Part shown: positions 19,484 through 22,956 of the stretch, in pieces | Position numbering within the stretch: the first letter of the stretch is position 1 | Layout of the letters: every line of letters begins with the position of its first letter | Virus record (IMG/VR): IMGVR_UViG_3300033153_010139 | Location: 1 to 64,000 of that record | DNA from: a virus | Direction: 5' to 3' (one strand) | Length of the DNA stretch: 64,000 bases | Notes under the pieces: generated by a model | The model's database searches: none | What the model was told of the DNA's origin: nothing | The model's input: only the letters and a program-made list of their open reading frames with translations | Program-made: the position numbers and the translations under genes

Positions 19484-19969
19484 ATGGCTCGCTCAGCAAG
19501 CACTGACCCTTACCTGAACATGCGGTTCCACCTGGTTGATCCGGGTGGCGGCAATCTCGATCCGATCGCGGGCTTCACTCAGGTGACCACGCCCAACATC
19601 ACCGTGGAGCCGGCAGAGTACCGCGAGGGGGTCTACCGCTGGACGCGGAAGTTCCCTGGTATCACCACCGTCGGCGAGGTCCAGTGCATGACCGGCACCG
19701 TCAAGCGGGAGTCGGCCTTCTACGACTGGATCATGAAGGTCGCCCGCGGCGGCGTCGCCGAGTACCGCACCGACCTCATGATCATGGAGTACCACATCAC
19801 CGACGAGTTCGGGATCGATGGCGCTCCCTCGCGGATCATGCGGATCAAGGAAGCATTCCCCACGGACGTCAAGGCGATGGCCGACAAGGACGCCACCGGT
19901 TCCGAGGTCTCCATCCAGGAGATGACTCTAACCCTAGAAGAACTCGAAATCGAGTTGGTGACCGCTTAG
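19484..19969 (+). CDS. Tail tube protein, C-terminus recoded by homing insertion
   Basis: This 161-aa protein is a T4 gp19-like tail tube: FHLVDPGGGNLDPIAGFTQV near the N-terminus, GITTVGEVQCMTGTV and a C-terminal helix-strand end. It follows the sheath gene with AGGAGACCACC before the ATG. The last codons (LEIELVTA, stop TAG) are duplicated in amino acids but not in bases at 21126-21152, just beyond the GIY-YIG gene. CTA codons at 19926-19937 are unusual here and suggest that the 3' end came in with the endonuclease. Confidence 0.85.
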   Translation: MARSASTDPYLNMRFHLVDPGGGNLDPIAGFTQVTTPNITVEPAEYREGVYRWTRKFPGITTVGEVQCMTGTVKRESAFYDWIMKVARGGVAEYRTDLMIMEYHITDEFGIDGAPSRIMRIKEAFPTDVKAMADKDATGSEVSIQEMTLTLEELEIELVTA

Positions 19970-19975
19970 TAGCCC

Positions 19976-20025
19976 TTGACTTAGGGCGCCCCAGCCGCCA
20001 CTATCGACTAAAGATAGAAGGGCGG
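19976..20025 (+). promoter_or_regulatory. Promoter-like TTGACT and hairpin over endonuclease start
   Basis: TTGACT (19976-19981) lies 7 nt after the tube stop, but its -10 partner is poor. CCGCC, A, CTATC, 7-nt loop, GATAG, AAG, GGCGG folds into a hairpin at 19995-20025 ending 5 nt before the ATG at 20031 and hiding the GAAGGG purines. Homing endonuclease genes of T4 (for example I-TevI) are known to be translationally silenced on read-through mRNA by such hairpins. Confidence 0.5.
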
Positions 20026-20030
20026 TGGCG

Positions 20031-21125
20031 ATGGCTGAGGCGTTCTGGGTCTACACGGGCCGGTCGTCAGCTGGTGTTGTGATCCTGGCGGGGTACACGC
20101 GGATCAAGCACGCGAGCACGGTGCGCTGCAACATCGAGCAGCGCGCGTTCAAGGGCGCGAAGGGCGAACACATGAACGCCGTTCGCGCCCTCCTCGCATC
20201 AGGGCAAAATCTCCAGATCCACGTCGAGGCGCGGGACCTCGCGAAAGAGGGGGCCAAGCGCCTCAAGACGGAGCTGCAAAAGGGGCACAGCTTGCATGGT
20301 CGGCGCGGTTTGCCTTACCGGCGCGTGCACCAACAGAAGGCGCCCAACTCCCCCTACCTCGACCCGAGCCCCGTCTACTACGTCTACGAGCTGGTCAGGC
20401 CGGACACTGGCGCCGTGTTCTACGTGGGCAAGGGTTCCGAGAGGCAGCCGCCACGGGTGGACGACCACGTCAGGCACGCGAAGAACGGGAAGCGCGGCCA
20501 CAAGTTCTCGGTCATCCGCAAGCTCCTGCGCGCCGGGCTGTCGCCCGAGGAGCGTCGCGTGAGCGAGCACCAGTCGGAGCGGCAAGCCCTGCTCGAAGAA
20601 CGCAGGCTGGTCAAGGCGCGCGGCCTCGACCAGCTGACCAACGACGCGCCGGGCGGCCAGAGCCCGCCTACCGGCGACGACCACTGGACGCGCAAGCACC
20701 CCGAGAAGGTCTTGCGGGGGGACAAGCACCCGGCGCGGGCGAATCCAGAGCTGCGGCGCAAGCTGGCCGAGCACTGCCGAACCATGGATCCTGCCTGTCG
20801 CGCTCGCGGCGAGCGTCACGGCATGGTCAAGCTCTCCGACGCGCAAGTGGCCGACCTGCGCGCTCGGTTCAAGGCCGGCGGGGCAACACGGGCAGCTCTG
20901 GCCGAGGAGTTTGGCGTGTCCCCGCGGCACGTAGGCCGTCTGGTGCGCGCGAAGAACCGAGGCGGGCAGGCCGTAGCCGGACCGCAGCACGGCAACGCCA
21001 AACTCAGCCCGGAGCAGCGTGCCGAGATCCGCGAGCGACGGAACGCCGGGGAGAGCGGGCGCGCTTTGGCGAACGCTTTCGGCGTTAGTCCCAGCCTGGT
21101 AAGCTGTATTGCGCATGAGGGATAG
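20031..21125 (+). CDS. GIY-YIG homing endonuclease
   Basis: This 364-aa protein has a GIY-YIG core at about residues 115-190 (VYYVYELVRPDTGAVFYVGKG, then a conserved Arg/His region and E-rich helix LLEERRLVKARGL). NUMOD3-like GDDHWTRKHPEK and GDKHPARANPE follow, then two helix-turn-helix repeats (about 263-310 and 320-364). The N-terminal ~100 residues resemble a second, degenerate GIY-YIG unit. It splits the tail tube gene from its own original 3' end, which remains at 21126-21152. The ATG at 20031 is preferred over the GTG at 20025. Confidence 0.85.
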   Translation: MAEAFWVYTGRSSAGVVILAGYTRIKHASTVRCNIEQRAFKGAKGEHMNAVRALLASGQNLQIHVEARDLAKEGAKRLKTELQKGHSLHGRRGLPYRRVHQQKAPNSPYLDPSPVYYVYELVRPDTGAVFYVGKGSERQPPRVDDHVRHAKNGKRGHKFSVIRKLLRAGLSPEERRVSEHQSERQALLEERRLVKARGLDQLTNDAPGGQSPPTGDDHWTRKHPEKVLRGDKHPARANPELRRKLAEHCRTMDPACRARGERHGMVKLSDAQVADLRARFKAGGATRAALAEEFGVSPRHVGRLVRAKNRGGQAVAGPQHGNAKLSPEQRAEIRERRNAGESGRALANAFGVSPSLVSCIAHEG

Positions 21126-21152
21126 CTGGAGATCGAACTCGTTACCGCGTAA
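21126..21152 (+). pseudogene. Displaced original 3' end of the tail tube gene
   Basis: Directly after the endonuclease stop, the bases encode L E I E L V T A and a TAA. The intact tube gene at 19943-19969 ends with the same eight amino acids. Seven of the nine codons, stop included, differ between the copies, all synonymously. This is the signature of a homing element that carries a recoded copy of its target's end. Confidence 0.85.
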
Positions 21153-21219: not shown

Positions 21220-21501
21220 GTGAGCTTGTTCAACCGATTGACTGAGGCAAAGTCGGGCGGCGCGTCGCTGCTGCGGGCGGCCAAGGATCTGGAGCAAGCT
21301 GCCAAGGAACTGCGCGGGCTTGCCAAGAGCCATCCCGAGTACTCGATGACCTCCACCGCTCCGCACTCCGGGCTCTACGTCGTGACGCGCTCGGGCGACC
21401 GGATCGCGCGGAGCGCCATGGGCGGCGTCGCCGCGGCTCGGCAGATCGCCTACGACGCGACCGAGGGCGGCAAGTCGCGCAAGGCTCTGTCCGGGAAGTA
21501 G
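21220..21501 (+). CDS. Small protein with SLFxR N-terminal tag
   Basis: This 93-aa protein starts at the GTG at 21220, 5 nt after GGAGG. The N-terminus reads VSLFNRLTEAKSGG, the same tag as at 6528, 14377 and 21506, with L-T-E then Ala. The remainder is helical (LLRAAKDLEQAAKELRGLAK) followed by a short beta part (SGLYVVTRSGDRIARSAMGG). It is not recognised. The gene is 4 nt from the P-loop kinase-like gene and probably co-expressed. Confidence 0.65.
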   Translation: MSLFNRLTEAKSGGASLLRAAKDLEQAAKELRGLAKSHPEYSMTSTAPHSGLYVVTRSGDRIARSAMGGVAAARQIAYDATEGGKSRKALSGK

Positions 21502-21505
21502 CCCG

Positions 21506-22414
21506 GTGCTGGCCTCGCTCTACGAACGCATCGTTCCGCCGGCCGCCCAGCTGCTCCACGAAGGCGTCTTCGATCCGCACATCCTGAAGGCGATCTTCCT
21601 CGGCGGGGGCATGGGGAGCGGCAAGAGCGCCGTCGCCGGCTGGGTGTTCGGCAAGTCCGGCGGCAAGACGGTCCCCGGCGGGCTCAAGCCGCCGAAGGCG
21701 ATCGTTGGCCGGCTCGGCTCGTCGTTCGGGCTCAAGAGCCTGAGCGTAGACGAGGTCTTCGAGCTGCGGGCGGCGCAAATGGGGCTCGATACCAAGACCG
21801 CGTTCCACGAGCCGACCGAGCACCCGGACTACGCTTCGCGCGGGCACGAGGTCCACGACGCGGCCTGGTACACGATGATGAAACAGCGGGACCACTTCAG
21901 CCGCGGTCGGCTCGGGCTCCTCATCGACGGCACGGCCAAGGATCCGGCCTACATCTTGCGCAGCAAGAAGGCCCTGGAGGAACTCGGCTACGACTGCTCG
22001 ATGGTCATGGTGACAACGCCGCTGGGCGTCGCGCGAGCGCGTAACCAGGAGCGCGGGCGCACGGTCACGGACGCGGACCTGAAGGCGTCGCACGACGCGG
22101 TTCGCCGCGCAGCCAATACCTACAAGAAGACGTTCGGCAACCGCTACTACGAGATCGAGAACGCCAGCTCCTACGACACCGGCGGTCGCGCGTTCCGCGC
22201 CGAGGTCGAGTCGTCGTTTCACCGCTACGCCATGAAGATTCTCGCCAAGCCGCTCGCGAATCCCAAGGGCAGGGCGTGGGTCACCCGGCAGCTCGAAGGC
22301 GCGCCGGCCCACCTCAAGAAGAAGGTCTGGCAGGGGCTCGGCGTACGCTGGCGACCGAGCGCTGTGGACAAGCTCGGTGCGCTGGGAAGGCGCACGCTAA
22401 AGACGCCCCGGTGA
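21506..22414 (+). CDS. Zeta-toxin-like P-loop kinase with SLYxR tag
   Basis: This 302-aa protein has a Walker A GGGMGSGKSAVAGWVFG at about residues 33-49. LLIDGTAKDPAYILRSKKAL, EELGYDCSMVMVTTPLGVAR and RGRTVTDADL resemble the zeta-toxin fold, whose members phosphorylate UDP-sugars or act as small-molecule or nucleic acid kinases. The substrate is not evident. The N-terminus VLASLYERIVPPAAQLLHEG has the SLYxR tag with L-H-E then Gly. It ends AVDKLGALGRR, like the small SH3/KOW proteins' tails. GTG start; the ribosome-binding site is weak. Confidence 0.7.
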   Translation: MLASLYERIVPPAAQLLHEGVFDPHILKAIFLGGGMGSGKSAVAGWVFGKSGGKTVPGGLKPPKAIVGRLGSSFGLKSLSVDEVFELRAAQMGLDTKTAFHEPTEHPDYASRGHEVHDAAWYTMMKQRDHFSRGRLGLLIDGTAKDPAYILRSKKALEELGYDCSMVMVTTPLGVARARNQERGRTVTDADLKASHDAVRRAANTYKKTFGNRYYEIENASSYDTGGRAFRAEVESSFHRYAMKILAKPLANPKGRAWVTRQLEGAPAHLKKKVWQGLGVRWRPSAVDKLGALGRRTLKTPR

Positions 22415-22428: not shown

Positions 22429-22956
22429 ATGGCGAGATCCCAGAACAGTGATCCCCTTTTATCTCACAATTTCAGTCTGCTTGATGTCCCTGTACCCGGC
22501 GCCCTGCCGCTCGCGTTCTCGATCAAGGCTGCGGAGAGCGCGGTCAGCGGCGGCAACTTCATTGGCGCAAAGTCGGTGACGTACCCGGACGTCACGCTGG
22601 AGATGCGGACGATCAAGGAGGGGACTTCGCACGAGGTTCACCAAACGCCGACCGGCTACGTGACGACCGGCGACGTCACGATCGAGTGGGCGCTGTTCAA
22701 CACCAGTCTCGACATGTGGGCCTGGATGCAGCAAGCGATCCGGGGCAGGATCGCGCCGCGGCGCTCGCTGATTGTCGTGCACACCCGCAACGACAAGATC
22801 GTACCGCAGCGCATGGCGTTGCTGCACGGCTGTCTGCCGACGATGTGGAAGCCGTCGGGCGACATGGACGCGACCGCGTCCGAGGTCTTGCTGGAGTCGC
22901 TGACCCTGCACGTGCACAAGATTTCTCCCATCGCGCTGCCGATCCCACTCTCTTAG
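22429..22956 (+). CDS. Second tail tube-like protein
   Basis: This 175-aa protein belongs to the gp19/tail-region family: HNFSLLDVPVPGALPLAFSI at the start, VTYPDVTLEMRTIKEGTSHE, TGDVTIEWALFNTSLDMWAW, and the ending LLESLTLHVHKISP. It is clearly distinct from the tube at 19484. A second paralogue near the tape measure may form the baseplate-proximal or hub-adjacent tube ring, as T4 gp48/gp54 do. That is inference. Confidence 0.75.
   Translation: MARSQNSDPLLSHNFSLLDVPVPGALPLAFSIKAAESAVSGGNFIGAKSVTYPDVTLEMRTIKEGTSHEVHQTPTGYVTTGDVTIEWALFNTSLDMWAWMQQAIRGRIAPRRSLIVVHTRNDKIVPQRMALLHGCLPTMWKPSGDMDATASEVLLESLTLHVHKISPIALPIPLS

Follow-up and report, generated by a model that had tools for sequence, protein, structure and literature searches.

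Some homing elements replace the 3' end of the gene they invade. In the WHO elements of yeast, the 3' end of FBA1 is replaced at each integration, 3' fragments lie behind the endonuclease, and allele-specific cleavage has been shown (Coughlan et al. 2020, PMC7282813). The mORFs of the fungal mitochondrial genes atp6, atp9, cox2 and nad3 supply a foreign C-terminus, and the native one persists downstream of them (Beaudet et al. 2013, PMC3630166). In T4-like phages, the free-standing endonucleases of the seg and mob kind are described as intergenic or as splitting a gene, as mobE does in the nrdA gene of Aeh1 and mobA in gene 60 (PMC2988022).

Here we present a locus that combines a WHO/mORF-like working, in phages, with a free-standing GIY-YIG enzyme of the T4 kind. 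It lies in a 64,000 nt stretch (the window) of a virus record of 119,266 bp. As in WHO (PMC7282813), the endonuclease sits directly downstream of an essential gene, the incoming 3' end appears to replace that of the host gene, the old end is left behind the endonuclease, and no intron or intein splicing is involved. The displaced native end is found directly behind the endonuclease at 21126-21152 of the window, and also in two relatives, L018 and L022. In WHO, the sequence difference of the incoming 3' end confers resistance (PMC7282813). WHO enzymes are yeast proteins related to HO and inteins, with a zinc finger and with cleavage shown, whereas the enzymes here are GIY-YIG proteins of phages. 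Because the window enzyme joins GIY-YIG to helix-turn-helix units, and is not an HO/intein-related protein with a zinc finger, we take the element to be WHO-like in its working and not a member of WHO. Also unlike WHO (PMC7282813), the replaced segment is only about 14 codons long, and the relic of the old end is fused in frame to the endonuclease in two phages.

A first-pass annotation of the window had compared this arrangement with atp6 of Allomyces. The comparison is apt (PMC3630166), and WHO, which it did not name, is an equally close parallel (PMC7282813). As in atp6 of Allomyces macrogynus and in the atp6, atp9, cox2 and nad3 hybrids of Glomus, the native end is nearer to relatives than the inserted one, and the Glomus atp9 mORF is GIY-YIG, as here (PMC3630166). 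The fungal mORFs differ in being mitochondrial, mostly LAGLIDADG, mostly with longer replaced ends, and with transcripts tested; ours is a phage case read from sequence. With T4 seg and mob the locus shares a free-standing GIY-YIG homing gene beside an essential phage gene; in the T4 cases flanking DNA is co-converted, but the parts of that source used here mention no case in which a 3' end is replaced and its predecessor persists behind the insertion (PMC2988022). We found no earlier phage report of a 3'-end-replacing homing element in the open-access literature, as far as the available portions go.

The tube gene, its two tails and the endonuclease

The features of the locus are collected in Table 1. 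The final 27 nt of the tube ORF (19943-19969) and the 27 nt that begin at the base right after the endonuclease stop both encode LEIELVTA, the first ending in TAG and the second in TAA, exactly as the first-pass annotation had read them. The present expressed codons are CTCGAAATCGAGTTGGTGACCGCTTAG and those of the relic are CTGGAGATCGAACTCGTTACCGCGTAA. Paired as tail/relic, the codons are CTC/CTG, GAA/GAG, ATC/ATC, GAG/GAA, TTG/CTC, GTG/GTT, ACC/ACC, GCT/GCG and TAG/TAA, so that 19/27 nt are identical and 8/27 different. The annotated count of seven changed codons out of nine (six sense codons and the stop), every change synonymous, is borne out by this comparison. Translation of the window in six frames yields LEIELVTA at two places, the tail and the relic, and nowhere else.

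Table 1. Features of the invaded tube locus, in window coordinates.
Feature	Position	Strand	Evidence
Tail tube protein gene (T4 gp19-like), 161 aa, 3' end invaded	19484..19969	+	Pfam PF06841 (Phage_T4_gp19) E 9.9e-16; relatives 51-76% aa identical
Putative replacement (recoded) tube 3' end, about codons 148-161 and stop	19925..19969	+	Atypical codon usage, lower likeness to relatives; 5' boundary approximate
Hairpin-forming leader, tube stop to endonuclease start, 61 nt, over likely ribosome-binding site	19970..20030	+	Folding compared with shuffles
Free-standing homing endonuclease: degenerate N-terminal GIY-YIG-like domain, LEM-3-like GIY-YIG domain, C-terminal helix-turn-helix units	20031..21125	+	PF22945 E 2.4e-8, HTH families, structure matches, orthologs
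Relic, most likely the displaced original tube 3' end, LEIELVTA-TAA, without its own start	21126..21152	+	Two-copy comparison; fused relic IVVELVVN at the same position in L018 and L022
Next native gene (VSLFNRL...)	21220..21501	+	Counterpart 32-41 nt past the tube stop in endonuclease-free relatives

Were 8 substitutions placed at random in the relic, the chance of leaving its peptide unchanged would be about 7.5e-6. Amongst 34 tail pairs of endonuclease-free relatives that differ by 5-9 of 24 nt, none (0/34) has an unchanged peptide, and codons that alter the amino acid account for 79% of the differing bases. The window pair, with 7 changes in 24 nt and 0 of them amino-acid-changing, is outside the range of these 34 pairs. 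An identical peptide at such a distance, unmatched in the endonuclease-free pairs, suggests that the DNA changed while constraint on the protein kept the peptide. A search for the relic by DNA alone is marginal in the window (22/36, equalled in 2/200 shuffles) and gives no significant match in L018. The relic signal resides at the protein level and in its position, not in DNA similarity alone.

The two copies also differ in codon usage. Usage in the tube gene turns atypical at codon 148 (ACT, CTA, ACC, CTA, GAA, GAA...), and the last 14 codons, with CTA twice, TTG, ACT and three GAA, are amongst the rarest 1.8% of codon windows; the relic has usage near the gene average. CTA makes up 3% of leucine codons, and the earlier remark on rare CTA codons just upstream holds.

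The endonuclease ORF starts at GTG 20025 or ATG 20031 and stops at TAG 21125. Its main nuclease domain (residues about 116-212) matches the Pfam family LEM-3_GIY-YIG above cut-off, and its C-terminus matches HTH families, giving the combination of nuclease domain and DNA-binding modules that characterises GIY-YIG homing endonucleases. The first 90 residues match the main domain by profile comparison (95% probability, E 1.9e-8), revealing a second GIY-YIG-like domain. The confident part of the N-terminal model resembles the I-TevI catalytic domain (Z 9.6, rmsd 2.7, 85 residues), and the model of the main domain resembles PD-T4-3 (Z 9.6, rmsd 3.6, 92 residues). The extra domain (20031-20310) appears to be a tandem duplication of the nuclease domain, seemingly catalytically dead; as we see by eye neither GIY-YIG nor catalytic residues in it, it is probably a binding or spacing module. 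The leader folds more stably than shuffles in the window (z -2.7) and in L018 (-3.8), L022 (-5.1) and L024 (-2.5), and in 4/4 carriers stable hairpins extend to the start codon. T4 endonuclease genes offer an analogy by which these hairpins may restrain endonuclease translation.

The AlphaFold model of the tube protein has low confidence (pLDDT 40) and we leave it out of our conclusions. Elsewhere in the window, positions 3-1091 at the start of the record encode an endonuclease that has a pair of HNH_3 domains as well as a helix-turn-helix, which resembles its counterpart in the tube endonuclease (47% over 55 aa). Between the invaded tube gene and another gp19-like tube gene at 22429-22956, an odd spot for it, lies the gene of a P-loop kinase-like protein (21506-22414) that matches Zeta_toxin in Pfam.

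Relatives with and without the endonuclease

The presence of the endonuclease is polymorphic at a fixed site: it is absent in L003, L004, L009-L013 and L195, and present in the window, L018, L022 and L024. Tube proteins of the endonuclease-free L003 and L004 are 75-76% identical in amino acids to that of the window, and those of L009-L011, L012/L013 and L195 are 66-71% identical. In these relatives a normal tube end is followed by 32-41 nt and then by a MSLFDRL-type gene, and in the window the VSLFNRL gene starts 67 nt past the relic. Endonuclease and leader are therefore an insertion, and the relic is joined to native downstream sequence. The first-pass annotation had proposed an alignment with endonuclease-free relatives: the tube gene does run directly into the downstream gene in them, and no near-identical endonuclease-free relative was found. 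In a scan of viral contigs, from which near neighbours of the window record may be missing, we found no match to DNA encoding LEIELVTA-stop, and no endonuclease-free phage with the LEIELVTA tail that would represent the pre-insertion allele of the window. Lacking such a near-identical relative, the direction of replacement in the window itself rests on moderate evidence.

Profile scans identify full-length orthologs of the endonuclease, 43-45% identical to that of the window, in L018-L020, in L022/L023 and in L024 (the same as L005). In all three of these lineages the endonuclease is directly 3' of the same tube gene. Three records contain the L018 stretch and two contain that of L022, at 99.99% identity. 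The endonuclease frame of both L018 and L022 terminates in ...YYAKK-IVVELVVN-stop, and the L022 tube gene ends in ...VEE-IVVELVVN-stop. The shared peptide tells us that the endonuclease has the old tube tail joined to its own end. This fused relic corresponds to the tube sequence from just after the conserved EE, matching the start point of the window relic. The L018 relic thus encodes the tail peptide of L022, and it differs in protein as well as DNA from the tail of L018 itself (VSIELVVT). In L022, tail and relic differ at only 2/27 nt, so strong recoding is not universal amongst carriers. The near-identity in L022 may reflect a recent event between near-identical alleles, a target with few critical bases, or homogenisation by recombination. 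In L024 the endonuclease is present, and we find no recognisable relic.

Wider screens give no additional cases. A tblastn search of isolated-phage records finds no tube relative, the endonuclease has only nuclease-domain matches in those records, and genome contigs give only distant nuclease matches. We searched about 77 other GIY-YIG loci, separately from L018, L022 and L024, for a repeated C-terminus of the preceding gene and found no further case (next best score 18, compared with 35). In 2.8 Mb of loci, exact downstream repeats of 8-residue C-termini are those of the window, of L022 and of an unrelated set in L039, where several adjacent small genes (L039:1067-2202) share the peptide end AKLKEKN and are apparently paralogous repeats.

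The other end of the tube gene carries mobile DNA as well. A group I intron (Rfam RF00028; L005:3015-3291 and L018:4689-4965) splits the tube gene after about codon 11, and a gene for an endonuclease with a helix-turn-helix and a Phage_endo_I-like domain is found just upstream of the split gene in both. In L022 the upstream endonuclease is present and the tube gene is intron-free. With an intron and endonuclease at 5' and a GIY-YIG element at 3', the tube gene is targeted at both ends in these phages. In L024 (3801-4700) the frame of the upstream endonuclease continues in frame into the tube start (...PKESAMARAIDTDFYH), so that its C-terminus would include the tube N-terminus.

Which 3' end was replaced

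To compare tails (the last 8 codons, 24 nt) with gene bodies, we regressed tail identity on body identity over 45 endonuclease-free pairs and obtained a z for each tail. The clearest case is L018. Its tube body is 86% identical in DNA to that of L022, but the last 8 codons match at 11/24 (46%) where 0.78 is predicted (z -4.6). When the L018 relic is substituted for the tail, the match to L022 is 18/24 (z -0.5). The L022 and L024 tails are normal relative to each other (19/24, z +0.7), so that mere variability of the tail within this clade does not account for the L018 value. Compared with L024, the L018 relic (13/24, z -3.1) fits no better than the L018 tail (z -2.5). Codon by codon, the drop in L018 identity starts about seven codons before the start of the relic; in the window, the codon anomaly precedes the relic start by a similar distance, six codons.

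For the window alone the discordance is moderate. The present tail has z of -2.0 (L004), -1.3 (L003), -1.0 (L012), -2.1 (L009) and +0.3 (L195), and the relic +0.4, +0.4, +0.8, -0.3 and -0.9, respectively. The relic is closer than the present tail to 4/5 of these close endonuclease-free tubes; the exception is L195, closer to the present tail. With only 24 nt, every single tail comparison is weak. Taken together, the discordant tail of L018 and the agreement of its relic with L022 indicate that replacement of tube 3' ends has taken place and that the former end stayed on past the endonuclease. Most likely, judging from these identities, the element brought the 3' end that is now expressed, and the native end was displaced to become the downstream copy. 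The core claim of the first-pass annotation, that an endonuclease sits within the tube 3' end and a changed tail restores the protein, is thus supported by the endonuclease-free relatives, by the orthologs in three lineages, and by the L018 identity drop and relic.

A variant compatible with the main part of this reading is that the tail was replaced, but simply imported from a diverged phage, its difference never having been selected for resistance to cutting. We lean against this variant while granting it real weight. The L018 tail differs from its relic in both protein and DNA, as expected of an import, and horizontal acquisition is described in the fungal cases (PMC3630166); the synonymous-only divergence in the window is unlike any endonuclease-free pair at that distance.

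Another possibility is that nothing was replaced, and that the element entered next to the 3' end of an intact tube gene and duplicated ~27 bp of target site, the downstream untranslated copy having drifted since. The two L022 copies do look like a recent duplication. A drifting untranslated copy should gain amino-acid changes, however, and the window relic has 0 in 8 differences; moreover, it is the expressed tail in L018, not the relic, that departs from the sister L022, and in the window it is the expressed tail that is atypical, the relic having normal codons and being nearer to most endonuclease-free relatives. We consider this scenario unlikely.

More doubtful still is an intron, of group I, group II or another kind, that would run unrecognised from the tube interior to 21125, with splicing joining the body to the relic and the upstream tail as an unspliced backup. 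Introns are a frequent home of phage homing endonucleases, and L018 and L005/L024 do have a group I intron at the tube 5' end. But the tube gene is already complete upstream, with its whole tail and a stop; in L018 and L022 the relic continues the endonuclease reading frame; and the region 19400-21400 matches no intron family at relaxed thresholds, nor group I even at E up to 5, with the same library that detects the introns in L005 and L018. By this search the window endonuclease is not inside a group I intron, in agreement with the earlier description of the insertion as intron-free.

Finally, although the contigs are metagenome-derived, chance similarity or an assembly artefact is hardly credible given that 8 residues match exactly from the codon next to the endonuclease stop, that the match returns at the homologous position in two other lineages (three and two records), and that P is about 1e-5 for synonymous-only change.

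A proposed homing cycle

We regard it as probable that the locus is a self-contained phage homing element that homes by replacing the tube 3' end. Its parts would be the roughly 14 replacement tube codons, the hairpin leader and the GIY-YIG endonuclease gene. In a co-infecting phage whose native tube tail is uninterrupted, the enzyme is predicted to cut that tail near the EE/LEIE codons. The break would be repaired from the element-bearing genome, with the tube body as the left homology and the relic and downstream sequence as the right homology. The recipient would acquire the endonuclease and the element-derived tube 3' end, and its own old tail would end up, as a fragment, past the endonuclease. 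Interruption could not destroy the target, since the replacement tail has to stay attached to the gene; a synonymous change in the tail would destroy it and keep the protein, and would also lower the direct-repeat recombination that would delete the element. The recoding would likely protect against self-cleavage; in L022, with 2 nt between tail and relic, such protection is not clearly displayed.

We are evenly divided on the broader proposal that phages have their own class of 3'-end-replacing homing elements, each pairing a GIY-YIG endonuclease with the synonymously recoded tail found in an essential gene for a structural protein, in which selection by the enzyme would drive the codon changes and the displaced tail could become the C-terminus of the endonuclease.

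If the proposed cycle is true, a homing strategy of yeast and fungal mitochondria extends to phages and to a structural gene. The locus would also be a compact natural test of nuclease-driven synonymous recoding of a host gene, an idea for which other systems offer few easy tests. Beside homing endonucleases, the final codons of a phage gene may not share the ancestry of its body, and phylogenies should mask tails of this kind.
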